Positions 1,348-29,424 of a DNA stretch of 64,000 bases are shown in pieces. Position 1 is the stretch's first letter. Each line of letters starts with the position of its first letter. This DNA comes from Fragilaria crotonensis (taxonomy: Eukaryota; Bacillariophyta; Fragilariophyceae; Fragilariales; Fragilariaceae): the NCBI GenBank assembly GCA_022925895.1, contig JAKSYS010000253.1, positions 1-64,000 on the forward strand, given 5' to 3'. The position numbers and the translations under genes are program-made. The notes below the pieces were generated by a model that had not been told where the DNA came from, made no database searches, and worked only from the letters and a program-made list of their open reading frames with translations.

Positions 1348-2318
1348 CTAGTAATCACGAGCATTGATTCTACCCTTCACTCTTGTCTGGCTCGGCCCCA
1401 AATCGGGTGCATCTTGCATAGAGACATCCGATGTACTCTCATCAGAACCTCCCATTGTGGCATCGGAGTGATTTCCACTGAGTACTGAATGAACTGACTT
1501 CTCGAGACTCGAATCACTCCCAGTCATATCCACATCACTGTCCACAGCCGAGGACGCATTGTCCGCCAAGGCCTTGATCGCACGTAGAATTTCAACATGA
1601 CTATCGCGCAGGATTGCCAAAAAGAGAGTCACAGTTGTGGCGTGGGCCACAGGTTCAGGATGACAAACCGCAGGGCTCAAACACAATTCAATCACTGCCA
1701 ATTCTCCATCTCGTCCAGTATCAGTGACCTGCAAAAGCTGCCCGAGATTCAATGTCAGCCTCTTCTTTGCGCGGGGACCGAGTTCGTTCCAGAGCGTCTC
1801 AAAGACGGCTTTGAAATCGACTTGAACTTTGAACAAACAAGAAAAGTATTGTAAGCGACCACTGACTTCAACACGTGGTGGATACGAGCAACATGGCCAA
1901 CTCACCGGAGACTTGAGTTCCGGCGGGAACGCTCTGTTGGTTTGACATGATGGACGTCAGTGATTCAAAAGATTTGTGTCGTTCTAACACATCGACTTTA
2001 AAAGGCACAACTGAAAAAAACCCACAACTGAAACACCCACAACTGCAAATTATGCGGTCGAAACAGAAAAACACACAACAAGAATCAGTTATGCATCAAC
2101 TGCAATTTCCATGTCAAACTGACCTTTGCTTGTCTTTGTCGTTGACTTGTCGAAATCTTGGATGTCATCGTCGTACTTGTATCCTGCAATGTGCTGCTGA
2201 GTGGTGCGGTTGCAGCTGCCACCAAATCTTCATGCTCTCGAATTGTTTCGAGAGAAGTAGCATTCCGAGGTGTTGGTTTCCTGACAACTTTTTGGCGTGT
2301 CCGCGATGAGCGAGACAT
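1348..2318 (-). CDS. Family X paralogue A (unrecognised three-exon gene)
   Basis: Proposed exons on the minus strand are 2318-2124 (65 codons), 1933-1906 (a 28-base micro-exon) and 1820-1348, giving 231 residues. Donors are AAAG|GTCAGT and CCG|GTGAG, and the frame stays open across both joins. Exon 1 encodes a basic N-terminus (MSRSSRTRQK). Exon 3 encodes a conserved core (FETLWNEL, LGQLLQ, ELAVIELCLSP, FLAILRDSHVEILRAIKA), then an acidic Ser/Asp-rich tail. Three further copies lie at 4.2, 9.7 and 12.9 kb. I do not recognise the family; the basic head and acidic tail suggest a nuclear protein, but that is only inference. An in-frame ATG 15 bases before the micro-exon acceptor could be an alternative start that skips exon 1. 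Confidence 0.65.
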
Positions 2319-3190
2319 TGTGTTTTATGAATTCGTATCTCATATTGGAGAAGCACATCGTGATGGTAGTTCCTTCATGATTTTTGACTATGAGTCAACT
2401 GATCCATTGGAAATGGTGTCTCCGAAAGAGGCACAGTACTACCGGTAGTGCTTGGAATCATGTGTACCAAATTTGGTGGATCGGTTCGTCCATACAACCA
2501 AAAGAGTACCGGTGTCTTGACTGTGTGTATAGCGAGTGTTCGTTTCGTTGTATGCGTACTCCAATCCAAGTAGCTAGTGCGTGGCACTTGGTTCAATCCA
2601 AATGTCCAAGTTGTCCACTTTTATATGTAACCAATGATCAATGATGCACAGTCCTCTTTGCCACCCAGTATCTACCGACACACTCTGCCTTCGACTGAGT
2701 GTTGGCGGCATTTCCATTTTTGTGTTGTCACATCATGGACGCTTCATCCGATGGAACGCATCAACGCATCCAACACTATATAACCATCGACCGCGCCATC
2801 CATGGATACCTTACTGACTCTGAGAATGGTACAACTAAAATATTATAAGCTTTGTACAATGTACTGTAGAATGAACAGTACCAGGTACGATTAATAAGGG
2901 TCATAAGTCATAAGTCATAATCTTCTATCATAGTTGAATTATTCTTACGTCTTACTGCGTACTGCGTACCTACCAGGTACTTGTGCTGTAGTCTCTACTA
3001 TGTCATAGTAGTATCCAACAATCCAAGGACCAAAGGTACGATTGTATTTTGTATTCATATATTTTATATATACAAGAATATAACTTATATAATTTTATTG
3101 AGTACGCATACTCTGAGTACGACGATGACACAGTGCTACAGTAGGGCCACTACGTACCCGTACCACACATACTACTATCGGAACATAATA
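2319..3190. repeat. Duplicated 5' flank of family X and GTAC-rich spacer
   Basis: About 2330-2540 resembles the upstream flanks of the other X copies: an ATGAATCAACTG-like word, a CTCCGAAAGAGG-like word, then GTGGATCGGTTCGTC. Related segments lie near 5340-5430, 10830-10930, 13780-13880 and 20120-20220. From 2640 to 3190 I see no gene, only spacer with repeated GTAC-containing palindromes. No JmjC-derived sequence remains beside copy A. Confidence 0.55.
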
Positions 3191-4159
3191 GGGAGATCCG
3201 GGTAGAGTCGTGTTTCCACTAAGTTTCCCTTTTATCATAACGGAAATTTAGTGGATGCGAAACTCAAAATAAAATTGGAAATTAGAGATCCGGCTTGACT
3301 TTAAACAAGCGAAATTTCTACTAAATTCTACGACAAAGATTCCTACTGGACACCAAGTAGGATTCCGCTTTGAGTTCCTTTTTCATCTACTAGCTGTTGG
3401 TGCGCTGTTCTCGCCAGATTTGGATTGCTGAGCACTGTCGTTTCTCCCATTGGATTCGCCGTATCAATATTAGTCTGTTATCTAGAAGGTAGTGAGTCGT
3501 TTAGCCGCTACATCGCCGGTATTGCAATCGTCGTCATGGCAAATGAGTTGTGATATTGATTTTTACTTGAGTGCGCACACAAGAACGCGCGAAACGTCGC
3601 ATGAATTCGAGGACAAGGATTCCTCCGACACGTCAAATAAGATTCCGTACAAGGGTTCATTGATGTCAACAATCTGTTGGTGCTTCGTTCTCGACCGATT
3701 TAGATCTCTGAGCACTGTCGTTTCTTTAGGTGGATCCGCCATGTAAATATTAGTCTACGTGTGATTGTTAGTCCGAGGTGTAGACTCATAAGCATCGGTA
3801 TGGCAATCGTCGTCATGGCGGGAGAGAGATGACAACTTTTTTCTGCAGGGGCCGACTAATTCGAACGCTTTTGTTGACAGCTTTGTTTTCAAGTACTAAG
3901 TTCTGCTTTGGCCTACAGAAATATGGTGCAACGTGGAACTACGAATGCAATAAACTGAACACGTGTAACGGAATCTTGAATAACAGAAACGTAGTGGAAA
4001 GAAGCAGCTCCTAATTTCCACTAAAGGCCCCAAAATCGACCTTTAGTGGAAATTGCGAAACAAGAGTCACTAATTTGTTTCCGTTGTTTTGACTCATAAC
4101 CGGTTCTGAGTCCAAATAACAGAAACTTTAGTGGAAACACGACTCTACCCGGATCTCCC
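3191..4159. mobile_element. Non-autonomous DNA transposon with 32-bp TIRs and TA target
   Basis: Perfect 32-base terminal inverted repeats start GGGAGATCCGGGTAGAGTCG and are flanked on both sides by TA, as in Tc1/mariner-like elements. The word TTTAGTGGA and its complement recur just inside both ends. Two diverged direct repeats lie inside, at about 3340-3490 and 3618-3770. No transposase frame is present. The flanks rejoin to sequence matching the uninterrupted paralogous site near 9615-9630, so insertion followed the segmental duplication that made copies B and C. Confidence 0.85.
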
Positions 4160-4194
4160 TAATGTCAACCAGTTTACGATCATAAACCAGATCA

Positions 4195-5297
4195 TTACAT
4201 TCTCTCAGATTTGCGACTTATGGGCAACGGGTACGCATCGTCCATTGTGTCGTTCGATGAAATAGTCTTAGTACTCCTTTTGGAAGATGTGTCACTCTCA
4301 CTCATGGCAGACAAGGCATCAGACAAGGCATCGCGAGCGTTTGGCATTGGAGTGTCACCGTTACTCCTGTCCAAGACATCCAAGTTAATCGTCTCGATGA
4401 CATCCAAGTCAGTCATCTTCCTAGTCAACTTCATCCATTAGCTCATCCCTCGTGTTCCACATGTCTTCAGCCCGTGCCTTGATCTCACGTATAGCTTCAA
4501 TGCGGCCTTCGCGCAGGATCGTCATAAACGAAGTCACAGCCACGGTCTCGGCACCGACAATAGGGCTTATGTTTAGCTGAATTGTCCGTAATTCTGAACT
4601 CCTCAAGTCCTCCCGTCCTTGATCCACAAAATCGACAAGCTGCCTAAGCTGGATCGTCAGAGTTTTCTTCGTGAATGTATCAATTGCGTTCCAGACTGCT
4701 TCTAACGCATCTATTAAAAAATCTCATGGTAAGTAAATGCTGTTTAAAAAGTGAACACACGCAATGGAATGGTGCAAGAGCGGGAAGGTCGCGTAAGTTA
4801 CAGTTTCGATTCTGATATGAGAGAGCTTAACTTCTGGTTTGCCAGACATTCACTATAAACTCATCCAACTCACCGGAGGCCTCGGTTCCAGGTACAAGTA
4901 CTGCAAGACGTGGGGTCTGAGCTCCCTGTGGAATTTCGAAGGACGACATGGTCGTTGTCGGCGAACATCCAATAGATAGAAGAGATAAGTAATTTGTGAG
5001 GTCAAATCTGGTGTCTCATGAAACATTCCAAAAATATTCCGTTGGTAAGGTTGATGAGATTTCCCTGTCGCATCATTGTACGGGAATGCTACTTACCTTG
5101 GCCTTAGCTTTTCTTTGTCTTCCACGCTTTGAGGTGTTTCGAAACATGTTGGATGCGATCGCCGTCGGATCATGCAATGTGCTGCTGAGTGTTGCGGTTG
5201 CGACCAAAGCTTCATCTTCTCGAACTGTCTCGAGAGTGGCATGCCGAGGGGTTGGTTTCCTTGCAAACTTCTTGCGTTTCTGGGATGGGCGAGACAT
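4195..5297 (-). pseudogene. Family X paralogue B, truncated by an insertion
   Basis: Closest relative of copy C at 9.7 kb. Exons are 5297-5097 (67 codons, donor AAG|GTAAGT), 4925-4874 (52-base micro-exon) and 4710-4421, where the frame ends in TAG right after DELMDEVD. Compared with copy C, this point carries seven extra bases. They introduce the stop and throw the tail out of frame; the downstream tail sequence (4195-4434, acidic and Ser-rich) is still readable in another frame. The product would be 180 residues instead of 247 and would lack the acidic tail. Head and core are intact, so it could still be expressed as a short form. Confidence 0.65.
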
Positions 5298-6409
5298 TCA
5301 TGTTTTTTAATGAATTCACATTTGACATTCGGCAATAATCAACTGCTATGAGTAATGACGTCTCCGAAAGAGGTACCGAGAGTCTTGCGATCCAAATTTG
5401 GTGAATCGGTTTGTCCATATATTGTAGAGAGTATCAATGAAGCACTCCGAGTGCATTGATATCTTCTCGGGTGCTACATCTAGGATGAATAACATATATA
5501 CATATATTTTGTCATAGCAGTTGACGGAATGTTTAATGCATCTATTGTACTGAACGCCCGTAAAACTTGCGTACATCTCAGGCTGATATTATCATATCAG
5601 AGTTAAAATTGAATCTCATAGATTGCATTGATCAACCCAGTTTGTGACGACGTCAGGGATCCTAACCGACTACACCAAATTACTTTCATAAGCATAACGA
5701 CACAAATTATCAGGATTGTTCAGCTTTCATCGGAAAACGTGGGATTGTTCGAGTCCTTATGAATTAGACGTTGGTGAGCGAAGGGAGGAAATGAAGTGTG
5801 ACCTTGCGTTCGACACGGTGGTCAGTTTCATGAAAAAGCTCTTCAAGGAATGACAGAGCTCAAGGCAACACATTCGCCGACTTGTTGTATTCTTCAGTCG
5901 GACCTCGGTCCATCAAAGCGGCTGGCGATCTGAATTGGATGGATGGTTCTCATAAGACGGCAATGGTCGATGACAAGACTCCGTCTGAGTGGGATTCCTT
6001 GTTTGGGGGATCAAGCGCGAGTTCGTGCAGTATCCGTTCAATGTTGGTGACTAGGAAATTGTCCAAAGGAGACCGCGGTCGACAACGAGGCTTCCTTGAT
6101 CGTCAGGATTGAGCGGTATACTTCAACGTTGGCTGGGATGTGTCCAAGAAGGCCATGGTCGACAACGACCTGATTGGGATTCTTGATCGACATCTCTATC
6201 TATTGATGGGAACGTCGAAGACTTTCACGTTGTACCCCGGTTGCTGCTTTCGGCGAGCAATGTCGTCACCGAAGTGGACATTCAACAAACTCTAAGCATT
6301 GCCATCACATTCATGTGGTGACAAATCCATCATACAATTGCGACGTCCCTCGTCCCAAGACTCCATCGTTCGTACGTCGGAACGAACCATGCAAATCCTC
6401 AGATTAACG
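5298..6409. repeat. Duplicated spacer between X-B and the JmjC pseudogene
   Basis: About 5298-5430 is the shared X-family 5' flank. About 5880-6400 resembles parts of 11160-11700 and 8940-9130 (for example a GGCGAGCAATG word at about 6250 and 9043, and a GTTGGCTGGGAT word at about 6127 and 11457). The last 100 bases match the region downstream of the intact JmjC gene around 20450-20500. No intact gene is seen. Confidence 0.5.
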
Positions 6410-7640
6410 GCGTCCTACTCAAGAAAAGTGGTTGGGTTTTCTCTCCGACTGCGAGTCATCGGCTTGGCCACACATTTAGTCAAAGTTGTCCCTGGCTCCT
6501 TGTCCAGAATCATTGCTTTCTTGGTTGCTAACTGTATCGCTTCCACTCTCTTCACCGCCATACATTTCATCCTCGTTAGTGTCGAGCTGCTCGTCGCCGT
6601 GTCATCATCGTCGTCCGTTGCTTGCTCCGCAGGCAGACGGTCCAGTCGTGTTTCACTACCGACATACTCGGAAGTAGTTAATAAGACCATTTGGATGACG
6701 GTGATGCATCTCTTCATCGGCCTTCATGTGCGGAGCGCAGCAGTCATGTGAAAAGAGTCGAAAAGTCTTGGATCCGTGCAGCAAAATATTAAAAAAGTGC
6801 CATAAAAGCAGAGATGCAACCCCGAACTCCTTGCGGTACGGGCAGCACCGACGCCATTCGTTCCCAACCACAGATTACACGAATAACGAATCACATTTCC
6901 TGCTCATGACAACTGGTTTGGTATGATTTTGTTGTCAATCAGTTGTTTGCAGGGAGTTGTCACAATTGGCCTTGCCGCATTGTCATCATCATCATCATCA
7001 TGATGATTTTGTTGCGTGGATAGGTAAAGCAAACGTCCATCTGATTTGTCTAGCGTTCGACAAAAATCCTGGACTTTCATCGTTAATTGCCAATCGGAGG
7101 ACGTCTCACTCGACCAAGTGTTTCTCGAGCATTCTGCCAACGTTCCACCTGGACTAGGTCCTGGCCTGTCACTCGGACTTGGATCAGTTGTTCTTTTTCC
7201 CAACAACAGAGGCTTCGTAGCTTGGTAGTCACCATCATAATCGTCATCAATATTAGCAAATACTAGAAGAACGTGAATTGCATACAAGGCTTTCCTTGCG
7301 ATATAGAATTTTGTGATGTAATGTTCGTATGAATGTCAGAATCCCCATGCCCACTTGGAACCGTAACTTGGGACCAAGAACACGTTGTCGGGGCCTGCTT
7401 TGTCTTAGTTTCGGCAGTACAAGTACTCGTACTGCTACCAGTAGCACCATCGCCAGAGACGGTCAAGGACGGTGAAAGCGAAAATCCAACGTAATACTAC
7501 TGGGTCGTGACCTTCCACGCCGCGCCATTGCATCCGCCATCACTGTCGCTCTCTCGTCGTCGTCGTTGTCGTCGCAGCCGTCTTGTCTTCTGCATCTCCT
7601 GACCTGAATTGACTGACGGCACATCTGGCGCTTATCGCAT
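6410..7640 (-). pseudogene. Decayed JmjC-domain hydroxylase copy
   Basis: Pieces in three frames match the intact JmjC gene at 20543-22090 in the same order: a piece near 7263-7466 containing GDGATGSSTSTCTAETKTK, then MKVQDFCRTLDKSDGRLLYL with PIVTTPCKQLIDNKIIPN at 6904-7287, then HGSKTFRLFS with HPNGLINY at 6656-6871, and the acidic insert at 6415-6717. The metal-binding HHD triplet of the intact copy has become HLC here, so even a repaired frame would lack the Fe(II) ligands. It is the partner of X-family copy B, just as the intact gene partners the flank remnant near 20 kb. Confidence 0.8.
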
Positions 7641-9190
7641 TGTCTTGGCGCACTTAAACTGACGTACGATGTGAAGAATGATTTACATTGATCCCGGCAT
7701 CGTGCTTGCTCAGCTTTGCCAATTGCTACTGTAGATCAGATTGGGGGTACTGTACCTACTACCGTAGTTTGACACTGTCGAGTATTGTACTGGAATACTG
7801 GAATACTGTAAGTTCGCGGACAGCGGAAACGGTGTGCTATGCAATATGCACAAAATAGACAAATAGACTATACCTGTACCGTACCTGGTACTGAAAGGAG
7901 TGTTTGCCCTAGAAAACTACAGCACGGTGTCCGGTATTAGTGCAAGGTACATGCATCGGACAACATGGTACAAGTAATACGTCGTACCGGTACAGTCCAA
8001 CCGTCAGGCACATGTGACTCGGGATTCGGGAGTCTGGACGTCGGGAGTCGGGACTCGAGACACGTGAGATCTGATGGACGACACAATTCTTGAAGCCTGC
8101 GGTCCAAGGACATTGACTTCCTTTCTTCCATCTCCGCTCCCCTTCGCTGTCGAATCTGCAGCAAGCAGGACGAGAAGCAACCGCGAATGCGTACTATACA
8201 TTGGGATCGCATCTGAAAACGTTGGACCAAATAGGACTGTGCGCCTCTTGCATATGAGTATGATGCCACGGTGGCAATCATCGGAGATGGGCATAGCACC
8301 GTCAATTTTGATGACGCAAATGGTCCCATGTCGTTTGCTAGCTTCGATTGAAGCCACACGTCTCGTCAGGCCCGACGTCGTCCTGCCCTGGGGTGGTGGT
8401 GGTGGTGAAAGGGCGTGGCAGTCGGATGTGAGTGCCAAGTCAAGATCATCCTCTCTACTCGACTTTGCCTGTTAGCGCCAATCAGCTTTTGGGACATTTG
8501 CTGGAGATTGCGATGAATTCAACGCTCTCCCTCTCTCGACTTCGAAAGCGAACCGTTTGTTGACGACAATCCAAATGTCAACACTTCAATTTTCGAACGC
8601 TGATGCCTGGCACTGCCAGACACTTTTGGAGTAGTAGGCACTTCAACGAAATTGACAAATGTCCCAAGCACGCCACTTGTAATCAGGATGCCATGAAAGG
8701 CAGCAACACATATAAGACGCAGAACGAAGATGATGAGTTGGAAAAGAAGTCGCACAATCGGCGAGCTTGACTTTGAGAGATATGCTGGGCCACTGTGGAA
8801 GTCTCTACCGGTGCTATTCAACCTGCTATTCTTTCGTTTATGGTTGGTAATAATCTTCCAACGCCGCACGAGATGAAAGATAAACGAGTGTATCCTTATG
8901 ACCATTATCAGCTGCTGGTTGTTTTGCAAGCTATGGATCGCACCCATAGTTCCAGTTATCGAGAGCTACAACAATTGAAGAAAAATGGTCAGATTAATTA
9001 TCGCTCAAGACTTTCAAGTTGTTCTCCCGCCAGTGCTCTCGGCGAGCAATGCTGTAAGCGACGAAGGGGACATTCAGCAAACTCGTAGCGTGGACCATCG
9101 TTTCTTTGTGTTTCCTTCTGATTCTCAACGTGACGCCACCGATGTGAAATCTTACCACAGCAATGCCTACCAAAGTACTTCAGTACATTA
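7641..9190. other. Spacer with short open frames, no recognised gene
   Basis: Open frames of 130-144 codons overlap on both strands at 7937-8475, and a 142-codon minus-strand frame lies at 8519-8947. None shows a domain I recognise. Parts of 8760-9130 are related to 11700-11770 and 6230-6300, so this stretch belongs to the amplified block. A poly-(GGT) tract lies near 8393-8407. Confidence 0.4.
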
Positions 9191-9688
9191 AAACTGATTT
9201 TGTAGTGGTGCTACTCGATGTACTGTCCCTAAATAAAAGTAAGTGTCCTTTCAGTGTGTCGGATTTTCGTTGAGAATCTTGTAACCTAACCACAATACTG
9301 TTCATCTCGTCCGTCCCTCTAAAAAGTCGTATCGTCGTGTTGCCTTAAACTTTTGAAGCATTTGCCGATGAAGTATCGATGGAATGTGATGGATCATGTC
9401 ATTCTGGAGAATATCGACATGGACTTGTTGATGCCTTTGCCATGCAGGCGGCTTGAGTTGGAGTTCCTCCCTCCAAAGGTGATGAGTTATGAGGCCTCAC
9501 AGGATTCAGTGTTCGATACGCACTGGTCCTACAGGAGCGTGTTATTCGTTGGTAGAAATGAAAACTGTTGCCATAGGATGATGGGATCAAATAAGGTCAA
9601 TCAGTCACTACTATCTGAACAAATGTCAACGAGAGTTTACGATCTTATACCAGATCATTACATTCTTAGATCAAGACTAATGGCTTAC
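9191..9688. repeat. Duplicated 3' flank of family X
   Basis: The segment with CTCGTCCGTCCCTC, then AAGTCGTATCGTCGTGTTG, then an ATGTCATTCTGGAGAATATCGA-like stretch reappears in diverged form at 12650-12800 and about 19940-19990. The sequence at 9605-9660 is the uninterrupted version of the site that carries the transposon at 3191-4159. Confidence 0.6.
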
Positions 9689-10800
9689 TTAGGCCAATTT
9701 GTTGATGGGCAACGGCTCCACTTCCTTCATTGCTTCATTCGATGAAACAGTCTTAGTACTACTTTTGGAAGATGTGTCACTCTCACTCATGGCATCAGAC
9801 AAGGCATCGGGAGCGTCTGGCATTGGAGTGTCACCGTTACTCGTGTCCACGACATCAAAGTTACGCGTCAAGATGACGTCCAAGTCACCTTCCAAAACTT
9901 CATCCATGAGCTCATCCCTCGTGTTCCACATGTCTTCAGCCCGTGCCTTGATCTCACGTATAGTTTCGATATGGCCTTCACGCATGATCGTCATGAATGA
10001 AGTCACAGCCACGGTCTCGGCACCGACAGTAGGGCTTAAGTTTAGCTGAATCATTCCCAATTCTCCACGCCCCAAGTCCTCCCGTCCTTGATCCACAAAA
10101 TTGACAAGCTGCCCGAGCTGGTTCGTTAGATTTTTCTTCGTGAATGCATCAATTTCGTTCCAGACTGCTTCTAACGCATCTGTAAAAAAATCTCATGGTT
10201 AGTAAATGATGTTAAAAAGTGAACACACGCAATGGAATGGTGCAATGGCGGGAAGGTCGCGTAAATTACAGTTTCGATTGTGATACAAGACAGCTAAATT
10301 TCTGGTTTGCGGGACACTCTCTAGAAACTCATCCAACTCACCGGAGGCCTCTGTTCGAGGTACAAGTACTGCAACAAGTGGGGTTGGAGCTCCCTGTGGA
10401 ATTTCGAAGGACGACATGGTCGTTGTCGGCGATGATCCAATACACGTATAGAAGAGATTATTATAATATGTGAGGACGACTCTGGTGTCTCATCTTTTTT
10501 CAGTTCGATCACGTTGATTTCAAAAGTATTCCAAAAATATTCCGTTGGTAAGGTCGATGAGATTTCCCTGTCGCATCATTGAACTGGAATGCTACTTACC
10601 TTTGCCTTAACTTTTCTTCGTCTTCCACGCTTTGAGGTGTTTCGAAACACGTTGGATCTGATTGCCGTTGGATCCTGCAATGTGCTGCTGAGTGTTGCGG
10701 TAGGGACCAAAGCTTCATCTTCTCGAACTGTCTCGAGAGTGGCATGCCGTGGGGTTGGTTTCCTTGCAACTTTCTTGCGTTTCTGGGATGGGCGAGACAT
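9689..10800 (-). CDS. Family X paralogue C (full-length member)
   Basis: Minus-strand exons are 10800-10600 (67 codons, donor AAG|GTAAGT), 10393-10342 (52-base micro-exon, acceptor CAG, donor CCG|GTGAG) and 10179-9689, giving 247 residues. Intron 2 has a TACTAACC branch-site-like word and a T7ACAG acceptor, which supports splicing. Head: MSRPSQKRKKVARKPTPRHA. Core: ALEAVWNEIDAFTKK, NQLGQLVNF, MTIMREGHIETIREIKARAEDM. Tail: acidic and rich in Ser/Thr. This is the most complete copy and the reference for B. Function is unknown. A conserved ATGTCG in the same frame 24 bases before the micro-exon acceptor offers a second possible start. Confidence 0.7.
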
Positions 10801-11779
10801 TCATGTTTTTTATGAATTCACATTCGGCAATAAATCAACTGCTATGAGAAATGACGAAATCTCCGAAAGAGGTACTGAGAGTCTTGCGATCCAAATTTGT
10901 GGTGCAGCGGTTTGTCCATACAACTATAGAGAGTGTAGAGTATGGAGTGCACAATCGCAGCACTCCGAGTCTTCTCGAGTCCTACATCCACGAATGGCGA
11001 CAGAATGTTTTATGCACCTCCTGAACTATGAACTATGAAACGATGGATCAACCTCACATGCGATGAAGTACTACTATCTGAGTACTGTTGGAATCTTTGT
11101 TAGACATTAAAGGTGGCACTTGATACACGGGATACCACTGGACTGGAAGTTTTCTTTGCAATCGAAACGTGGCGAGCAAACCGGATAACGCCTTGGCGAA
11201 AATGATCAATTTGTCAAAAGGATCGAGACGAATGCTGAATCAACTGGCGTCAGCAGCCGTCGTGTCGGCGGACGTTTCGCATTTTGCACAATCAAGAATC
11301 AGTTCAATTTCCCCGCCCGCGCGAGTAGTTTTATGTCTGGAATCACACATCGTAGGGTCGTTGGAAATGTAGAAAGACGAGCGATCAGATGACTCAGCCA
11401 CCAGAAAACTTGATTGTAAGAATCAACCGTGAGTTCGAATCATATCCGTTCTCGATGTTGGCTGGGATCTGCCCGAAGAAAATTTCATCAGGTTATGCAA
11501 AAATGGACGACCAAGCAACTGTTGAAGGCAACCAATGTGCTCTCCAAACCGATGAAAAAATGTGCTAAACTGCATGCCCCTTCCAACTATATCATCAAGA
11601 AACATAGCGCAGTATCGGACAAGTCAGACCCCAAGATAGCTATGGAAAGAGCGTAATGAAATCGCTTTTGACAAGAGGATGGTGCGTAGCCGGAAACGAA
11701 GCAGTCGTACAATGGCCATCAGTGATCGCATGCATTTCCTCTTTGTCGACGTTGAGTATGAGAGGTATGCTGGACTACG
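10801..11779. repeat. Duplicated spacer between X-C and a JmjC fragment
   Basis: 10801-10930 is the shared X-family 5' flank. 11160-11700 resembles 5960-6300 in scattered words. Short minus-strand frames here (for example around LDPFDKLIIFAKALSG at 11169-11240) may be remnants of a third duplicated gene that I cannot name. Confidence 0.45.
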
Positions 11780-12005
11780 CTTTTGTTGACGTTCGTAAAT
11801 CGTTCGTGCTCTTTTCTCAACTCCTCAAATGAACGGCCTCGATGGTCTATCCAAGAAAAGTTGATTGGTTTTCTCTCCAAGTCATCGGCTTGGCCTCACT
11901 GTTCGTCAAAGATGTTGTCCCTGCCTCCTTGCCCAGAACCATGGTTGGTGTTTTCATCGCCATCTGCGTTGCCTCCGCACTCTGTGGACCAAGTAGTACA
12001 ATATG
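11780..12005 (-). pseudogene. JmjC gene fragment (C-terminal part)
   Basis: The plus-strand sequence TCGTGCTCTTTTCTCAACTC and the following 200 bases align with 20750-20945 inside the intact JmjC gene (TCGTGCTCTGTTCTCAACTC and on). Only the part covering the acidic insert and the stretch before the last catalytic His is left. It sits downstream of X copy C in the same relative place as the longer pseudogene beside copy B. Confidence 0.7.
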
Positions 12006-12854
12006 AAGAATTATTCACATGATCCCCATCATTATGGTTGTTTAGTTCCTTTGATCATTGCAATGTACTGTACGATCATTTTATCGTAGATTAATTCGAA
12101 ATAAGACATCTGTTAGCATGCATACGGGTTACGGGTTACGGGTGTAATGCATTCTACATCTCACTGGACCGGTGTACGGCGTTTTCCAAACTTTGTTTAC
12201 TGTGTACTGTATGATATGTGGAGAGTTCCCGTACTGTAGTACAGTATAGTACAATTTTGCAGTACTCCGAGTACCTGGTACAAGTACTCGAGTACTGTTC
12301 GCATTGTTTGTACTACTATGACATATGACGACAACTCGTTCCGTATCTCATCGTGTAGACATCATATGAAATACGTGCATATATTCGGGTGCGGGTTGTT
12401 TGTTGAAATGGGGACGGGACATTCCATATCATACAACCAACAATCAACTCTGTTAGCAATTGGGACATTCATCAATCTCTTGGCATGGGCCATCGGCTCC
12501 ATGTGTTTTGTATTTGTGTGAAACACCTACTGAAGAAGAAGAAAAGAACCGATTTCATAGCTGTGCTAAAGGATGAATTCTCCTTGGTGGAATATACATG
12601 TATTTGTCCTTCCGATGTCGGGAATGTCGCTTGAGGCTTGAGAATTTTGCGACCTAACTACCAGGTACCGTTTTGCTCGTCTCGTCCCTCCCTGAAGTCA
12701 TATCGTCGTGCTGTCCAAACTATTGAAAAACGCACTGATGGCTATTGATGGACTTCCGATGGCTCATGTTATTCAAGACGACATTGACATTGACTAAGCT
12801 TTACTTTCAATTTACCTAATTCGATTCGTTGTTGGTGGGCGGAGGCGAACACGA
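12006..12854. other. GTAC-rich spacer and duplicated 3' flank of family X
   Basis: 12100-12320 is dense in GTAC words. 12590-12800 is the diverged copy of the X-family 3' flank also found at about 9240-9420. No gene is recognised. Confidence 0.5.
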
Positions 12855-13725
12855 CTACACTTCATCCATTGTGACATTCGATGCGTCACTCCGAGAACTC
12901 TTAGTTCCGGTAGAAGAGTAATCCATGGAAGAGTCGCTTCCAGTCAGCATGTCGACGTTACTGTTCCTGGACATGTCTTTTCCAATTGCCTTCAAGTCAC
13001 GTATAATTTGCATGGGACCCGCATGAAGGATTGCCATAAAGGGAGGCACCACTGTCAACCTCAATGGAGGAGGAACAACAGCGCGGTCCAACATGAACTC
13101 AATAATTGCCAATTCATCGCCAATCATGTCCATGAAACCTCCAACCTTGGCCCTTTGGAGCTGCCCAATATGGTACATCAGATTTGATTTTGTGTGCTGC
13201 TGATTGATTGCCCTCCAGAGCGCCTGGAACACTTCCTTGACATCTTTGAAAATTAATTTGAACCAACAAGCAACAGCACATTGGTCAGTGAATATGGTCA
13301 TCACGGAATGATGCAACGGCAGTAAGAACATTGCTCAGCTCACCGGAGGCTTGAGTTCCTGCGGGAACACGCTGTTCGATTGACATGATGGTCGACGGTG
13401 ATTGGAAACAAGATATGTGTCATTTTAGCATAACGTTGGTTTGACGAGGCACAATTGAACATCACCCAGAGGACATGGCAAGAATCAGCTATGCGTCAAC
13501 TGACTTTTCCATGTCGCAACTGACCTTTGCCTGGTGTTGTCGTCGTCTTCGACTACTCCTTGACGGCGTCTTTTGAAATGTGTTGGATCCTCCGATCGCC
13601 ATTGGATCCTGCAATGTGCTGCTGAGTGTTGCGGCTTCATCCTCGCGAATGGTATCAAGAGTGCTGGCATGCCGAGTTGTTGCGTTCATGGCACCTTTCT
13701 TGCGTTTCTGCATTGGGCGAGACAT
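12855..13725 (-). CDS. Family X paralogue D (divergent member)
   Basis: Minus-strand exons are 13725-13525 (67 codons, donor AAAG|GTCAGT), 13371-13344 (28-base micro-exon, acceptor CAG, donor CCG|GTGAG) and 13243-12855 (acceptor TTTTCAAAG), giving 205 residues. The exon phases are the same as in A and C although the sequence has diverged, which argues that the gene model is real. Head: MSRPMQKRKKGAMNATTRHA. Core: VFQALWRAINQQ, HIGQLQ, DELAIIEFML, FMAILHAGPMQIIRDLKAIG. The acidic Ser-rich tail ends in MDEV. As in A, an ATGTCA start-like codon lies 15 bases before the micro-exon. Function is unknown. Confidence 0.65.
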
Positions 13726-13984
13726 TTTTTTTATGAATTCCAATCTCGTACTCGAGTGGTACATGATGGTTGATGCTCCATTATTTAACAATGAATCAAC
13801 TGTTCCATTTGAAATGGAGTCTCCCCAAAAGAGGTATTGGGAGTCTTATGGTGGATCGGTTCGTCCATACATAAGCAACTATGACACTAGAGTAAAGTAC
13901 CGGTGCCTAGAGTGTATACTAGAAACACTCGAGTACGTCCTCTAGTGTAATGTTGTATACGATAAGCCACCACATTCATGGGAA
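13726..13984. repeat. Duplicated 5' flank of family X copy D
   Basis: Contains AATGAATCAACTG, AAAGAGGTATTGGGAGTCTTA and GTGGATCGGTTCGTC in the same order as 20125-20215, where no X gene remains. The shared flank marks the edge of the duplicated unit. Confidence 0.6.
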
Positions 13985-14590
13985 GCCGCTAGTAGTCATC
14001 TTCTTTCTTCATGTTTCACTGCTTTTCATGGATAACATCTTGCGTCAAGCATGAGAAAGTACAAAATGTTGCGACACGAATCACCATTTGGCAAGCGCCC
14101 AGCCATAGGCTGGTCGTTGCTGTGACAATGAACCAAAAAAATATCCATCAAAGAAATGAAGCAATGCTCCTCGTCGCGCGAGATGCCAATTGTTCACGCG
14201 TCGGAATGAACCAAGCGCCTCGATCAAGGGAGTGGGAATCATTAGATAGCCCCGCACAGCACGAACGCATTGTTGTCAGTATCTATGGTGGGCAGCAATT
14301 GAAGTCAATTGAAGTCATCGAACCTTGTCCGGTGGGGCGAGGATGGAACCAGAAGCTGAGAGCCATGATGCTGTGATAATAATGATCCTTTGTAGATTGA
14401 CTGGTAACTTTATGGCACTAACCGGTCGATGCGAGAAAAATTGTTGGGTTTACTCACCGGCGAGTCATGGGTTCCTTGGCCACACATTTTCAAAAGTCGT
14501 TGTCCCTGCTGGCTCCTTGCCCAGAACTCATGGTTGTCATTCGTCGCCATTTGTGTTGCTTTCACTCTCTGGACCAAGTACAATGCGAAG
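13985..14590 (-). pseudogene. JmjC gene fragment with its 3' flank
   Basis: 13960-14060 matches the sequence downstream of the intact JmjC gene (GATAAGCCACCACATT, CTTTTCATGG). 14330-14590 matches 20590-20945 inside it (GATCCTTTGTAGATTGACTG versus GGTCCTTTGTAGATTGACTC; GTTGGGTTT; GGCCACACATTT). The middle is rearranged. This is the JmjC partner of X copy D. The 193-codon frame at 14410-14991 on the same strand is mostly spacer read through. Confidence 0.7.
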
Positions 14591-15045
14591 AATTCTTCTG
14601 TATACAATCCCATCATCGTTGTCGCTCGTTGGATCTCCGCTCCATTATCTTTCTTTGTGTATACATATGATACGATGTAGACGACTCCAAGATTCATAGA
14701 TATGTCTGGGGACTGGGGACACGTACGGGAGTCCTGTCTTCTACATTTTACTGGAACGGTGTATGTGCATGTACGGTGTATGGAGAGTGTAGAGTTCACG
14801 TACTGTACAAGTTGCAGCAAGTACTGTACCTGGTACTGTACGTCTGGTTTGTATCCATGGGAGCACACGAGCACACCTTCGTTCAGTATCTCATCGCGTA
14901 GACTATGCATACATACTCGAGTACTACATAGGGTAGAATCCGGTCCTGGTTGTTGCTTACCATGCGCGACAGGAACACAATCCACACACACAAGATCATC
15001 GAGTTGTTGTTAATCATCAAGACACAATAGTAATCCTTCATCATC
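14591..15045. other. Spacer upstream of COPS2
   Basis: No gene seen. Rich in GTAC words (14750-14850). The last 50 bases are the presumed 5' leader of COPS2. Confidence 0.4.
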
Positions 15046-16546
15046 ATGTCTGACGACGACGACGACGAAGAGGAATACGAGTACGAGTATGATGATGAAC
15101 AGGATGAAGAGATGGAAGATAAGTTTGAATACACGGACGAGGAAGAAGAGGCGGACGATGGTGAAATCAAAATGGAAAATGATTATTACAATGCCAAGGG
15201 CTTACGAGACACCAATGTCACCGAGGCGATTCAGGCATTCGAAAAGGTCATTGCTACCGACAGTCAGAGTGAACAAGTCAATTCTCAAGGAAAGAAGTAT
15301 GGACAATGGTCCTTCAAAGCTATGAAACAGCTCATCAAGCTTCATTTGCGAACTGGAAATTCAAGTGAGATTCTGCGTCATTATGAACGTTTGATGGAAT
15401 GCATTTCGGAAGGAACTATCAGTCCGAACGCTGTAGAAAAGGGAATCAATGGTATGTTGGACAGAATCTCGTCCATTCTGCAAGGAACTCTTCGTCAAGG
15501 GTTCAAGATCCACGCAACCTTGCCAGTGAAATATACGAACGTACCATCAAGTTCTTTGAACCCAAGAGAGGGCCCTTTCCAAACGATCGATTGTGGTTCA
15601 AGACAAATCTCAAGTATGGTCAACTCTTGTACGAAACGAATGAAACGGGAAAACTTCAATTGGTATTGCAAGATCTCAAGAACACTCAATTTTCAGAATC
15701 CAGCAGTTCATCGACTCATTTGATGGAAATTTACGCACTTCAGATTCAGCTCTACTCACGCCAGAAGGATAACAAGGAGCTGCGCAAAATATTTGAAAGG
15801 CGCTCGCGGTCCGCGGTGGTATTCCCCATCCTCGCACTCTTGCCTTGATCCAAGAACTGGGAGGTAAGATGCATCTGGCAGCCAGAGAGTACGAGGCGGC
15901 AGGCAAGACGTTCTTTCAGGCATTCAAATCGTACGATGAAGCTGGAGATCCGAGTCGATTGAGATGTCTCAAGTACTTGGTCATGGCGAGTATGCTTCAT
16001 TCCTCCTCCATTAACCCATTCGATTCTCAAGAAGCGCGACCGTATCGCGATGATCCTGAAATCGTTGCCATGACGAATCTTGTACAAGCGTTTCATAGTA
16101 ATGAGATTCAGGCGTTTGAAAAAATATTGCGAGAGAATCAAGGTCGAATCATGGAGGATGAGTTTGTGCGAGAGCACGTGGAAGACCTGCTTCGGACCAT
16201 TCGCCGTCAAGTCCTACGACGCGTCATTCAACCATACACTCGTATTTCCTTGGAAGCCATTTCGAAGGAGTTGAATGACATTTCAGTGCGGGATGTCGAG
16301 TCCCTTCTCGTCGGTCTTATTCTGGATGGGAAATTGGACGGCGAGATTGATCAAGTGGATGGGGTGTTGTTGTTGAAAGGTACTTCCTCGAAGAATGCTG
16401 TCATTTCGAACCAGATTGAAGTTTGCGATGCGCTCGATCAGATGGCGACGGCGTTGGAGGGCGTCTCGAACTTCATCACAGGCAACCGGTTGAAGGAGAC
16501 TAATCAAGGGGCCATGAGGAGTATTACCAATGTCGCAGCTCATTAG
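15046..16546 (+). CDS. COPS2: COP9 signalosome complex subunit 2 (two frame changes)
   Basis: COPS2/CSN2 is a PCI-domain scaffold subunit of the COP9 signalosome, which removes NEDD8 from cullins. The acidic N-terminus (MSDDDDDEEEYEYEYDDEQD) and AIQAFEKVIATDS, WSFKAMKQLIKLHL, NDRLWFKTNLKYG, LMEIYALQIQLYSRQKDNKE, GGKMHLAAREYE, CLKYLVMASML, INPFDSQEARPY, DPEIVAMTNLVQAF and SKELNDISVRDVESLLVGLI follow the family in order and length. The frame slips twice, near 15485 and near 15800, each consistent with one missing base; both sides of each slip are fully conserved and there is no room for introns. Sequencing error is the likelier cause, recent inactivation the alternative. The PCI/winged-helix region lies at about 16080-16400. 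Confidence 0.93.
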
Positions 16547-18100
16547 TGTGCCTATCGCTGCCATGTGGCTGGATGCAGGAAAAAGACGTTTTGGATGCCC
16601 CGTAGTAGCTCGTTTTGGATGATAGGAATATACATGTATATTTAGTATTATTTGACTCAACGCATGGAGCGATTCGTTGTTTTACTGTGTCATCACTTAC
16701 GCGATGCATTCATCAGCATCAAATGAGATTTGAATGCAGGGAGCATTAAAAAAACTAGAACTCAATCTACCGTACTACCGCAATGCCCAAGACGAGAAGA
16801 CATTCGACCCGCATGCAGGGAGCATAGTGCACCCAGGCCCAACAACAAAGAGGATATAGTAGAGGCTTCCTTTGTTCTGCATCATTTACCATGATGCGGT
16901 TCGTACCAAATTGCAACATCTATTTCTACCGTAGTTGTGTCAAAGGCAACCAATACTTCATTTTCATCGGTCGTCAAGTCTTTGCAGTATTTTTTTTCAA
17001 ATGCATATCATGTCGTATGTATGATAGCATCAACTTATGTGAAGGTACTCCAGTACAATTCAATTACAGTACAAGTACCGTAGTCATTTCGCAGCATTCC
17101 AGAAACATGTCATGTACTACCGGTAGTACCATATATGACGTATGCATATGATTGATCCGTAATATTGTACTGTAGCATTCTTTTACTGAAGTGCTCCGGT
17201 ATTGTTGTACCAGGATCACTGTAGAGCAAATACTTCATACGTCATATTTCATATTCATACGGACGGGGCATTATGTGCATCCTTCTCAGCTCATGCGCCT
17301 ATATGAATACACGAACAACAAACCAAGTTTAGGATTTTTCGATTTCAGTCTTGTGTCTTGTCGACAGAGTAATAACTAATAACCGTAATAACTCGAGCAA
17401 TGAACCGACATCGTAAGGAAGACGACAACGTCATCGAGTACCGCTTGCTGCCCGCATGCGCTTGCTAAAACTCAGTTGTATTCATACTTGTGCTTTGATC
17501 TACTTTGATAGTAGTACTTGTACCAGAGAACTGAACTTGGAGGATTGAGAGTATACGAGGGAATAGAAACGAATGTGACGAATGCACATTAGCGTGTATA
17601 TATACGTATATGACATACGCACATGCTGTGCCCTTTTTCTCGTTGTTGGAAGATGACAAATATCAGGTTTCTGTGTATGTGCGATTAGGTTTCACCAATT
17701 TGACGTCAACGCCCACGTCACAGTACTGATGTCTTCACGTTCAACGTACTGACATACAGTACTACAGTAAGACAGTAACATACTGAGAGCGTCCTGATTG
17801 GTAAGCGCTGACGTCAAATTGGTGAAACCTAATCGGATCTGGTTTATGAGTTCCAGAACCCAATTTTTAACAATGGGAAACAAATTTGTGGCGGGCTACC
17901 GTTATCGAACGTTACAGATTTGTGTAGTAGTGCTTGAAAAATGTGTTTTTGTGTTTTCATTCGTTCAAGAACGCAGAGTACGGTAGCAGATGTCTGATCC
18001 ATGAGACGTCGTTGCGTACCTGGCATATTAGTACTCATGCTGCGCTGGGGAGAAGATTCTCACAATACACATTCCTCGACTCTCCTAAGGTTCAGCTGCC
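16547..18100. other. Intergenic, GTAC-rich, with one small MITE
   Basis: Short open frames only (62-86 codons), none recognised. GTAC words are frequent between 17040 and 17240. A small inverted-repeat element lies at 17682-17835. The last 60 bases are the presumed leader of the Hint-domain gene. Confidence 0.45.
17682..17835. mobile_element. 154-bp MITE with 31-bp inverted repeats
   Basis: The left end CGATTAGGTTTCACCAATTT and the complement of the right end agree over 31 bases with one mismatch. The interior is short and non-coding. No clear target-site duplication is visible, so the superfamily is not assigned. Confidence 0.75.
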
Positions 18101-19840
18101 ATGAAGCTCTCTGTTCTCCTCGTCATCCTTGGCGTTGCTGTTGAAGGTCTCGACATCACTGTCGAAGATGCTGTTTCTATTGTCGAGGACTCGAGTTCCG
18201 TTAACTTCGAGACCACAACTGGCAGCACAACTGAAGGTTTCCTCGCTGTCGAGATCGAGGGATCCAGTTCTGTTCTCACGAGGAAGAATTCCGGCACTGT
18301 AATCCAACGTGGCCTCAAGAAGGCGACTGGCAAAGGCAAATCCAAGCGTAAGCGCAAGATAAAACCGCATAGTCCCGCACCAACAGCTGTATCTACCGCC
18401 AAACCTTCTGCCCGCAAATCGAAGCACAAGCGCAAGGTAAAACCAACTGCAGCACCAACCTCCACACCAACCGCCACACCAACCGCCACACCAACCGCAG
18501 CACCTACATCAGCACCTACATCAGCACCTACATCAGCACCTACATCAGCACCTACATCAGCACCTACATCAGCACCTACATCAGCACCTACATCAGCACC
18601 TACATCAGCACCTACATCAGCACCTACATCAGCACCTACATCAGTACCAACCGCCGCACCAACCGCAGCACCAACCGCAGCACCAACCGCAGCACCAACC
18701 GCAGCACCAACCGCAGCACCAACCGCAGCACCAACCGCCGCACCAACCGCAGCACCAACCGCAGCACCAACCGCCGCACCAACCGCCGCACCAACCGCAG
18801 CACCAACCGCAGCACCAACCGCAGCACCAACCGCAGCACCAACCGCAGCACCAACCGCAGCACCTACATCAGCACCTTCATCAGCACCTACATCAGCGCC
18901 TACATCAGCGCCTACATCAGCGCCTACATCAGCGCCTACATCAGCGCCTACATCAGCACCTACATCAGCACCAACCGCAGCACCAACTTCCGAACCAACC
19001 TGCTTCTCTGGTGACGCAATCGTCACGGTCCACGGGAAGGGTCACGTGAGAATGAGGGATGTCAAGATTGGAGACCGTGTTCTTGGGATGGGTGGGGAAT
19101 TTCATGCTGTCTACGCTTTCGTACATTGGTCAATTGATGCATCCCCTGTGTATATCCGTCTCCATACAAATGGTACCTCAGCTCCACTCGAGATCTCGTC
19201 GCGTCATTTTGTGTTTCGCTTCGATCAACAGGAAGTTCCTGCGGTGCCTGCATTCTTAAAGGTTGGTGATGTCCTTCTTGGCGCGGATTCCACTCAGGGC
19301 GCGCGTGAGATTATCAAGATTGATACTGTCATGAAAAAAGGATTCTATGCACCACTCACCTCTGATGGTACGATTGTTGTCAATGGAGTCGTTGCCTCAA
19401 GCTACGCGTTACCGCAATCTCACTCCCTCGTCGAGGACCCACATGATTATGTGTATTTGTGGGGAAAACACAAGATCATGTCAATCAATGCGTTTAGTCA
19501 TATTCGACACAGTCCCCTCCGCCTTGCTTCTCTAGGAATTTCGCCTTGGTTTGGCACGCTGGCGGATAAGGAACGAAGGAATTTCCTTTCCCTAGCTTAC
19601 AAAATATCCGGCACGTGGATGCATTCCCGCACTCATGGCTTCGGCGTTGTGGCATTGGGAACTGTGCTCTTTTGTGCCTTGTGTGGGTTTTCTTTCTTTT
19701 GCTATTTGTTCGAGTGTATCGTCGGACCAGTCATGGGTCCAACTGTCATGGCTTTGGTCATCCTCGCATCCGTGGTGACATTCAAGAAGCAGCGCCAGAC
19801 CAGGACCGCCGGCGGTATTGTGAAGCTGAAAATCCATTAG
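18101..19840 (+). CDS. Secreted or membrane APT-repeat protein with hedgehog-type Hint domain
   Basis: This 579-residue protein starts with a signal-like peptide (MKLSVLLVILGVAVEG), followed by a Lys/Arg-rich linker and about 180 residues of APTS/APTA tetrapeptides (about 110-295). A Hint autoprocessing domain runs from about 301 to 440. Visible Hint marks are the N-terminal Cys301 in TCFSGDAIVTV, IGDRVLG, the block-B-like SSRHFVFR with His369, and VNGVVASSYA, which matches the hedgehog GVLASCYA end. Two hydrophobic segments follow (about 508-560), then a basic tail. The domain order fits a cell-surface or extracellular matrix protein whose repeat region might be released or lipid-linked by Hint cleavage at Cys301; that activity is inferred, not shown. 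Single exon, intact. Confidence 0.85.
   Translation: MKLSVLLVILGVAVEGLDITVEDAVSIVEDSSSVNFETTTGSTTEGFLAVEIEGSSSVLTRKNSGTVIQRGLKKATGKGKSKRKRKIKPHSPAPTAVSTAKPSARKSKHKRKVKPTAAPTSTPTATPTATPTAAPTSAPTSAPTSAPTSAPTSAPTSAPTSAPTSAPTSAPTSAPTSAPTSVPTAAPTAAPTAAPTAAPTAAPTAAPTAAPTAAPTAAPTAAPTAAPTAAPTAAPTAAPTAAPTAAPTAAPTAAPTSAPSSAPTSAPTSAPTSAPTSAPTSAPTSAPTSAPTAAPTSEPTCFSGDAIVTVHGKGHVRMRDVKIGDRVLGMGGEFHAVYAFVHWSIDASPVYIRLHTNGTSAPLEISSRHFVFRFDQQEVPAVPAFLKVGDVLLGADSTQGAREIIKIDTVMKKGFYAPLTSDGTIVVNGVVASSYALPQSHSLVEDPHDYVYLWGKHKIMSINAFSHIRHSPLRLASLGISPWFGTLADKERRNFLSLAYKISGTWMHSRTHGFGVVALGTVLFCALCGFSFFCYLFECIVGPVMGPTVMALVILASVVTFKKQRQTRTAGGIVKLKIH
18465..18995 (+). repeat. 12-bp coding minisatellite (APT tetrapeptides)
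   Basis: More than 40 units of 12 bases in three homogenised blocks: CCTACATCAGCA (APTS), then CCAACCGCAGCA (APTA), then CCTACATCAGCG/CA again. Blocks of identical units point to recent slippage or unequal exchange inside the gene. The length keeps the frame, and it also opens a long antisense frame. Confidence 0.95.
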
Positions 19841-20542
19841 GGTGTTGCTGCGCTGATGTACAAGAACCAGGCATACACGCCATACTCCGAGTACTTCGAT
19901 GAACATTAGGTAGTAGTATATTGGAATTGTTCTTCTCGTCTGTGCCGTTAAAGTCGTATGTCGTATCGACGTGTTGTCCAAATTTCTGAACGGCCAAATC
20001 AAGGCAGGTCAATCCGAAAGGAAACTATGCATGCAACGATCATATACCAGATTGCCAAACTAGAACAAGACTACCAGGGTTAACTTACTATTGGGCCTAG
20101 TTTTACTCGTCTTTGCTCCATCATTTGACAATGAATCAACTGCTACGTGCGAAATGGAGCCTCTCCGAAAGAGGTATTGGGAGTCTTATCGTGGATCGGT
20201 TCGTCGATACACAACTGGAGTAGACTCCGAGGGCGTTGAGATCTTGTCGAGTCCTCTAGTGTAATGTCGTATACTATAAGCCACCACATTAATGGGAAGG
20301 CGCTGTTGGTCATATTCCTCATTGTATTTGTCACCGCTTTTCATGGACGTATCATGCGTAAAGCATGAGCTGGAAAGTACAAAACTTCCGACACGTCACC
20401 ATTCTGCAAGTGCCGATGGTCGTCGCCGTGACAATGAACAAACAAATAAAATAGCGACGTTCCTCGTCGCGAGACTCCATCGTTCGTGTGTCGGAACGAG
20501 CCAAGAGTGCGCCTTAGTATACAATCTATCAACGAATCGTTG
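19841..20542. repeat. Flanks of a lost X-family copy and JmjC 3' flank
   Basis: 19910-20000 resembles the X-family 3' flank (GTTCTTCTCGTC, AAGTCGTATG, GTGTTGTCCAAA). 20040-20090 resembles 9630-9690. 20110-20260 is the X-family 5' flank. The flanks lie only about 100 bases apart, so the X gene itself has been deleted from this unit. 20270-20500 is the 3' flank of the JmjC gene, shared with 13960-14060 and 6330-6400. Confidence 0.6.
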
Positions 20543-22090
20543 TCATCTGATTGCCCCGAATGCATCTTTGTCAGTGTACGGACAACTGAAGTCGTCCATC
20601 TTGTCCGGAGGATTGAACCAGTAGTTGAGAGCCATGTGATAATGGTCCTTTGTAGATTGACTCGTAACTTCATGGAACCAACCAGCTGGTAAGTAAAGTG
20701 ACTGTCCTGCTTTCAAATGCACAACAGCTTCGTTGACACACGAAAATCCTTCGTGCTCTGTTCTCAACTCCTCAAGGGAACGGCCTCGCAGGTCTATCCG
20801 AGAAAAGTTGTTGGGTTTTCTCTCCGACTCCGAGTCATCGGCTTGGCCACACATTTCGTCAAAGTCGTCCCTGGCTCCTTTCCCAGAAACATTGTTGTCT
20901 TCGTCGCCATCTGTATCGCTTCCACTCTCTTCACCAAAGCCCTTGCCATACAACGCTTCCTCGTCAGTGTCGTGCTGTTCGACATCCGTGTCATCGTGGT
21001 CGTCTGTTGCTTGTTCCACAGGCAGACCGTCCGGTCGTGTTTCACTACCAACATAACTAATGAGACCATTTGGATGAATGCGATGAATCTCCCCATAAGT
21101 CTTCATGTGCGGAGCGCAATCGGGCGAAAAGAGTCGAAAGGTCTTGGATCCGTGCAACAAGACATAAAAATTGTCATGAAAGTCGTGATGCAACCCCGAA
21201 CTCGTCCCGGTGTGGGCAGCACTGCCGCCATTTGTTCCCATCCACAGATTGCACGATTGAAGTATCAAATTTCCTGCCCATGACAACGTGTTTGGAATGA
21301 TTTTGTTGTCAATCAGTTGTTTGCATGGAGTCGTTACGATTGGTCTAGCCACATCGTTATCACCATTCTCATCATCGTCCGTTAGTTGTGTGGATAGATA
21401 AAGCAAATGTCCATCTGATTGTTCTAGCGCTTGACAAAAATCCTGGACTTTCATCATCAATTGTCGATCGGGACATCGCAACTGACCAAATGTTTCTCGA
21501 GCATCCAGCCGACGTTCCACCTGGACTAGTTCCTGGCCCGCCACTCGGATCAGTTGTTCCTTGTCTAACACCAGCGATTTCGTAGCTCGACAGGCATCAT
21601 CATCGTCGTCTTCATCATTAGCGAGTATTGGAAGGGCGTGAATCACACAAGGCTTACGTTGTGAGATGCAATCGTTCCATAGAATTTGTGGAAATTTGTT
21701 CGTGTGAATGTCAGAATCACCATATTCGTTTGGAACGTAACTTGGGATCATGGTGACGATGTTGGGGCCTGTTTTAGTCTTCGTTTCGACAGTACAAGTA
21801 CCTAAACTACTACCAGTTGCACCAGTACCAGAGACCGTCAATGATGACGGTATTAGCGAAAATCCAACATACTGGTTCCTGACGTTCCACGCCTCGCCAT
21901 CGCTACTATCACTCTCGTCGTCGACGTCGCAGCCGTCTCTTCTGCATCTCTTGACCTGACTTGGCTGAAGTATCTGCAGCTGGTGTTTATCACATTGTTT
22001 CACTTTAACTGACGAATGATGTGAAGAACTATTCACATTGATCCCATCTTCGTGCTTGCTCATTTGCTCATCGCTATTTTGTGTGCCCAA
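20543..22090 (-). CDS. JmjC/cupin-8 domain 2-oxoglutarate hydroxylase-like protein
   Basis: 515 residues, single exon. JmjC proteins of the cupin-8 type are Fe(II)/2-oxoglutarate-dependent hydroxylases acting on proteins; the substrate cannot be told here. The core reads WAGNLILQSCNLWMGTNGG, then GLHHDFHDNFYVLLHGSKTF with the H-x-D iron ligands at about 301 and 303. An acidic low-complexity insert follows at about 350-430, then LKAGQSLYLPAGWFHEVTSQ with the distal His at about 473, and ALNYWF. The N-terminal about 100 residues are low complexity. It is the only intact copy in the window; decayed copies lie at 6.4, 11.8 and 14.0 kb, each next to an X-family gene. Confidence 0.88.
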   Translation of the reverse strand: MGTQNSDEQMSKHEDGINVNSSSHHSSVKVKQCDKHQLQILQPSQVKRCRRDGCDVDDESDSSDGEAWNVRNQYVGFSLIPSSLTVSGTGATGSSLGTCTVETKTKTGPNIVTMIPSYVPNEYGDSDIHTNKFPQILWNDCISQRKPCVIHALPILANDEDDDDDACRATKSLVLDKEQLIRVAGQELVQVERRLDARETFGQLRCPDRQLMMKVQDFCQALEQSDGHLLYLSTQLTDDDENGDNDVARPIVTTPCKQLIDNKIIPNTLSWAGNLILQSCNLWMGTNGGSAAHTGTSSGLHHDFHDNFYVLLHGSKTFRLFSPDCAPHMKTYGEIHRIHPNGLISYVGSETRPDGLPVEQATDDHDDTDVEQHDTDEEALYGKGFGEESGSDTDGDEDNNVSGKGARDDFDEMCGQADDSESERKPNNFSRIDLRGRSLEELRTEHEGFSCVNEAVVHLKAGQSLYLPAGWFHEVTSQSTKDHYHMALNYWFNPPDKMDDFSCPYTDKDAFGAIR

Positions 22091-26404: not shown

Positions 26405-26635
26405 CAGAAGAGAGTGTCCTAGCAGTACCATTACCTGAAGTACTATGCACTGTGCACGGACCACGATGCTGTGCGCGCAACGACATGCTTTTGCTTCAAA
26501 CTCTTCAAACGCCTTGGGAGTTGGGAGTCTGTCGTATGTATGCATGTGTATGTAGATCTTGGTTTTTCGTCATGCGATCACTCCAGTCCCGGATATGGAA
26601 GTGTATAACAGGATTTTTTCATTCAAGTTGTATTA

Positions 26636-29415: not shown

Positions 29416-29424
29416 GTTCCAGAT

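Follow-up and report, generated by a model that had tools for sequence, protein, structure and literature searches.

Lineage-restricted tandem gene families are a familiar kind of gene content in diatoms, and the Cupin_8/JmjC 2-oxoglutarate (2OG) oxygenases are recognized by an HxD ... H iron triad together with a 2OG lysine. Here, we describe an array in the diatom Fragilaria crotonensis in which a small gene, X, is repeated beside a JmjC hydroxylase gene. The array lies in the first 64,000 nucleotides of contig JAKSYS010000253.1 (the window; C173:1-64000, where C-numbers denote contigs of the 62.1 Mb, 881-contig genome). Our preferred reading, to which we assign a probability of roughly 60%, is that X is an orphan family kept together with a promoter element of its own and that its JmjC neighbor is a duplicated bystander. 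The lineage-restricted tandem families of diatoms (cf. PMC7335047 on Seminavis robusta) resemble X, which is small, multicopy, partly tandem, and without a known domain. X differs from them in being tied to JmjC remnants and to a family-specific upstream element. Among the titles and abstract openings returned by a literature search, there was no published case of an X-like family with JmjC remnants and its own upstream element.

By comparing the window with itself on both strands, we recovered four X-gene units (A to D), JmjC pieces beside B, C, and D, and a fifth, X-less unit (E), with common spacers, order, and strand, much as the original prediction had laid out. All X genes and JmjC pieces of the array are on the minus strand, with JmjC preceding X. 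The X genes lie at 1348-2318 (A), 4421-5297 (B), 9689-10800 (C), and 12855-13725 (D), and the lone intact JmjC frame of the array is that of unit E (20,543-22,063). Units B (4161-5432) and C (9622-10934) are 84% identical over 1,338 columns. The JmjC remnant of B (6422-7728 in this comparison) is 77% identical to the JmjC of E (20801-22076), which is also matched by the remnants of C (11782-11983, 79%) and D (14424-14577, 79%). The D spacer (13774-14423) is similar to that of E (20114-20683, 69%), and therefore flanks are common to the units; the 3′ flanks of C and D are likewise similar (9270-9425 vs. 12638-12795, 71%). Unit E retains the X 5′ flank, and no X exon was found in it. This dot-plot-type check of the flanks agrees with the earlier claim that the unit was duplicated as a block, since the spacers between X and JmjC are common to the units, X-less E included.

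Beside X, the JmjC copies have decayed. The remnant of B (6368-7728) is nearly full length, with many stops and frame changes; that of C (11770-12026) consists of the start region adjoining a C-terminal piece, with the middle missing; and that of D (14337-14676) is the C-terminal part only. We searched the upstream stretches of ten X units on both strands (A to D, those on C12, C34, C87, C121, and C827, and the first of the two on C870) and found JmjC remnants upstream of X and on its strand in six (B, C, D, C121, C827, and C12). The remnants on other contigs cover the C-terminal part (C121), the middle (C827), and the N-terminal part only (C12). The last of these has the least support (a 45-base match at E=4e-5 with blastn; E=0.1 with tblastn), and its sequence aligns along the JmjC start. 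Because the remnants are differently truncated, they decayed by different routes. None of the JmjC remnants read beside X has an open frame, whereas the X exon-3 frame is open in five of the six remnant-bearing units, with B breaking in its tail. The claim that X was retained while JmjC decayed is thus upheld, and given their many stops or large deletions, the remnants are evidence of decay. Four downstream stretches gave chance-level JmjC matches only (best blastn E=0.07, over 24 bases at C870; best tblastn E=0.5), including matches at C12 on the opposite strand (E 0.5-0.8).

The X genes, by contrast, keep a common structure. Exon 1 lies at 2124-2318 in A, 5097-5297 in B, 10600-10800 in C, and 13525-13725 in D, and exon 3 at ~1348-1826, from ~4710, at 9689-10179, and at 12855-13243, respectively. 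Between them is a very small exon 2 with an uncertain 5′ end, which ends at ~1906 in A and ~10342 in C. A phase-0 GT donor closes exon 1 in A to D, in the copies on C12, C34, and C121, and in the C152 allele of D; the same scan located none in C827 and C870, both of them diverged. In A to D, the second donor and the exon-3 acceptor also occupy corresponding places (the second donor of D being GTGAGC, by eye). The frame is open in A, C, and D and broken in the acidic tail of B, where the break is either real or an assembly error. Frames, except that of B, and exon phases were therefore kept, much as predicted.

Exon 1 codes for a basic arm (net charge +7 to +14 in six copies), and exon 3 codes for a core of ~90 residues followed by an acidic, Ser-rich tail. 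Among 11 aligned X rows, which were selected as matches and count one D allele among them, tail charge is −4 to −17 in 10 and −1 in the truncated C87 copy. In all 11, the core is alike, with conserved W, F, and KA positions, and one core Lys is invariant. The core is predicted to form five helices, with a predicted local distance difference test score (pLDDT) of ~90 at residues 1-50 and 61-80 and of 76-78 between and after, and the tail is predicted to be disordered. A basic arm, five-helix core, and acidic Ser-rich tail suggest a small nuclear protein whose core would bind a partner. The C12 copy carries a long poly-serine run in exon 1 (L026 5497-5793), and in C34 this run is short.

A block 5′ of X exon 1 can also be aligned across diverged units. 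On the minus strand, its core lies at 10863-10883 in C (found by alignment and by a 21-base pattern), at 5364-5384 in B and 13825-13845 in D (each one mismatch from the pattern), and at 20165-20185 in X-less unit E, where it is the same in haplotigs C152 and C626. The element of A (2401-2494) is diverged, contains an insertion, and was missed by the pattern. When we searched the whole genome with the 21-base pattern, allowing ≤2 mismatches, 12 of 13 matches fell at X units or at X-less E. The one off-target match, on C368, had two mismatches, and the reversed pattern used as a control gave one match. Half of the on-target matches (6 of 12) represent D and E in three haplotypes (C173, C152, and C626), and the distinct units with the pattern are B, C, D, E, C121, C798, and two on C870. 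Diverged versions at A, C12, C34, and C827 were seen by alignment only, and no element was found at C87. Because the pattern derives from copies of the element itself, recovery of most of them is by construction. The C798 and second C870 copies were not used for the pattern and are 83-92% identical to one that was. Compared with the cores of B, C, D, E, and C121, that of the first C870 copy is the same at 18-20 of 21 bases. The exon-3 proportion of synonymous differences (pS) of C870 is 0.65-0.70 relative to C121 and to A to D. What is informative, then, is the near absence of the element elsewhere and the persistence of the C870 core despite this divergence. The reading frame through the element varies between copies (by eye), and it is therefore noncoding; a short upstream reading frame was ruled out on the same grounds. 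As judged from sequence, the element is likely a promoter element of X.

X is a dispersed family of ~12 copies, some of which are perhaps alleles, rather than one limited to a single array. About eight of these copies lie on other contigs: C12, C34, C121, C87 (a broken partial copy without exon 1), C827, C870 (two copies), and C798. The pairs C12-C34 and C798-C870 are close, and some may be alleles. Weak matches on C218 (two, of which one place was read) and C669 are candidate members outside this count. C626 and C152 are haplotypes of window positions 10,920-31,051 and 12,318-31,213 and repeat D and E in the stretches read. For A to C, we found no second haplotype: C626 begins at the position matching 10,920, and the end of C152 falls at 12,318. 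D and its C152 allele (window 12700-13920 vs. L025) have identical introns but 20 differences over the 390 bases of exon 3, a pattern resembling that of a recombination breakpoint within the gene. The C121 unit (L028 5273-5571) has a D-like X gene yet a 3′ flank resembling those of A, C12, and C34, which may reflect sequence exchange among units.

The copies are strongly diverged. The nearest copies to A are those on C12 (70% identity in exon 3) and C34; A is 40% identical to C, and D is nearest to the C121 copy at 55-56%. B and C, with 83% protein identity, are the sole close pair inside the window, and the C870 protein is only 20-29% identical to the window copies. Exon-3 pS between X lineages is 0.34-0.70. 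Given these distances, the array is a set of old lineages, and the proposal that X was newly amplified is not supported in that form. In a protein tree of the 11 rows, most forks were weak (five of eight were open) and A stood apart from C12 and C34, and we took relationships from pairwise identity instead.

To ask about selection, we compared hand-chosen pairs, one per lineage, by the ratio of the proportions of non-synonymous and synonymous differences (pN/pS). Exon 3 (A-C12, B-C, and D-C121) gave a pN/pS of 0.65 (P = 0.002), and exon 1 (A-C34, B-C, and D-C121, with C12 omitted because of its poly-serine run) gave 0.48 (P = 3e-5). The exons combined gave 0.58 (P = 5e-7). When A-C34 replaced A-C12 in exon 3, pN/pS was 0.72 (P = 0.02) for that exon and 0.62 (P = 1e-5) combined. 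On these values, purifying selection on X is long-term and moderate, in line with the suggestion that X is under selection. We also simulated neutral evolution, with substitutions only and with frames open at the start, and recorded the chance that neither member of a pair acquired a stop. Over nine pairs, this chance was 0.09-0.6% for the five most distant (A-C, A-D, C-D, D-C827, and C-C870), 3% for D-C121, and 9-47% for the close pairs A-C12, A-C34, and C12-C34.

Searches for known relatives of X returned no name for it. Pfam placed no family over its cut-off on any of the 11 rows, and NCBIfam and PHROGs gave nothing for copies C and A. Against PDB sequences, the best match was a designed protein at E=0.03, and nothing was significant. 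Foldseek with the X model reached no match at E 0.001 in PDB (best E=0.54, a designed cage) or among the viral structures of BFVD (best E=0.62). No X homologs were found in viral and prokaryote contigs. The nearest candidate was the helical domain PADR1_N (PF21728), which matched weakly in 2 of 11 rows (best E=0.002). However, X scores 18.9 bits against a curated cut-off of 25.7, and the match lies over the last core helix and the predicted-disordered tail; we took it as chance. An orphan family is thus the best reading of X, and the statement that it has no name stood after profile searches and Foldseek on a predicted structure.

The JmjC gene of unit E (20543-22063, minus strand) is intact, codes for 506 amino acids, and has the HxD, Lys, and distal His in place. 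It is Cupin_8 over the Pfam curated cut-off (E=4e-29; 102.6 vs. 27.4 bits), and H292, D294, K307, and H464 are invariant over four aligned proteins. Its structure model had a mean pLDDT of 35 and was not used. The best solved relative is the JMJD7 lysyl hydroxylase (E=1e-5), with which the HxD, Lys, and distal His align, but E carries a long acidic insert and an N-terminal extension. It is not the JMJD7 ortholog, since a protein encoded on C78 aligns with JMJD7 structures far more strongly (E=9e-36 for the chain listed as GH14974p and 6e-32 to 3e-30 for chains listed as JMJD7) and is the canonical JMJD7. A JmjC paralog on C222 is nearer to E. With both of these genes in the genome, E may not be essential. 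The earlier idea that one JmjC copy suffices accordingly fits the single intact gene in the array, but C78 and C222 are also present.

Under our preferred reading, a unit consisting of a JmjC hydroxylase gene followed by X on the same strand would have been duplicated anciently and repeatedly, into the local array and onto other contigs. Through the upstream element, which most X genes carry, X would stay expressed at each new site and subject to moderate purifying selection; the selection is seen in the pN/pS values, and we infer the promoter role and the expression. The JmjC copies would be redundant passengers that decayed through stops and deletions, differently in each unit, and one of them, in unit E, would have remained intact and lost its X. 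Because JmjC decayed beside retained X copies and the intact E is without X, X would need no linked JmjC gene. It is also possible, if unlikely, that X works with the JmjC protein as its partner or substrate, that the pair was co-duplicated for that reason, and that E now serves all X proteins in trans. The order and strand repeated at six units across highly diverged X copies would fit this, as would the retained HxD, Lys, and distal His of E and the invariant Lys of the X core. Yet no remnant read beside X has an open frame, X persists at loci without detectable JmjC, unit E lost its X, and block duplication alone accounts for the linkage, so that the original suggestion of a partner or regulator stays unproven. 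In a more speculative version, to which we give little weight, X proteins would be new nuclear regulators co-expressed through the family-specific element as a dispersed regulon, with E modifying a lysine or another residue of the X core in trans and the linkage lost once E could act on all copies.

Several observations weigh against the bystander reading, in addition to the circularity of the pattern search. No JmjC was found upstream of A, C34, C87, and C870 (at C34, only 980 bases are available upstream), where it may be too old to detect, lost, or past the contig end. X is probably nuclear, as judged from its composition. Recent pairs appear weakly selected: dN/dS (the ratio of non-synonymous to synonymous rates) is 0.69 for A-C12 and a near-neutral 0.98 for A-C34, B and C differ as much in exon 3 as in their introns, and D differs from its C152 allele in exon 3 and not in introns. 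A dN/dS near 1, proposed beforehand as an argument against selection, was thus seen for A-C34; the lineage pairs combined gave a pN/pS of 0.58-0.62. The A-C34 and B-C values, together with the broken, partial C87 copy without exon 1 and the unsurprising open frames of close pairs, could instead mean that X copies are mostly decaying or drifting neutrally and that the array is left over from segmental duplication and has little function. We find this distinctly unlikely given that exon-3 frames are open at 29-58% nucleotide distance, that the combined pN/pS is significantly low, and that splice phases are conserved in A to D, C12, C34, and C121 along with the upstream element. That a mobile or viral element carried the JmjC-X unit is very improbable. 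Copies are dispersed over several contigs and an insertion like a miniature inverted-repeat transposable element (MITE) lies between A and B, but many contigs carry the MITE ends and no X match. In addition, no relative of either X or the E JmjC turned up in a viral contig collection, although that search needed a short exact seed and may miss distant ones. If the bystander reading holds, this would be a duplicated pair in which, repeatedly, one member decays and the other keeps its frame and upstream element, and the array would amount to a naturally replicated experiment on what in a duplicated block is of use. X itself would offer a clearly delimited orphan family, with a cis-element open to testing and a small fold predicted with confidence.

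The E frame is broken in two haplotigs by single-base gaps at different places. A gene between D and E (15046-16546), which we take to be CSN2-like, likewise has frame breaks at different places in three haplotypes. In view of both, the haplotig frameshifts in E are probable assembly errors rather than real decay. Such single-base errors are apparently common, and isolated frameshifts such as that of B are therefore not trustworthy.

The MITE-like insertion (3189-4161) is ~970 bp long, with perfect 34-bp terminal inverted repeats at 3189-3222 and 4128-4161. Its ends are dispersed in opposite orientation, ~0.9-1 kb apart, on at least six contigs (C54, C56, C94, C204, C613, and C869). Leucine-rich repeat (LRR)-like genes, so labeled from their translations without a family search, adjoin X or JmjC units (window 22500-34000; L027 3800-5700; L028 7700-8200; L039 500-2900). 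Their presence beside units on C173, C34, and C121 suggests larger duplicated segments. Finally, the protein encoded at window 18101-19840 combines a Hint module with a long PT/PTSA repeat (Pfam Hint and PT), and its frame is open over 579 amino acids; in the C626 and C152 stretches, its longest frames are only ~300 amino acids.

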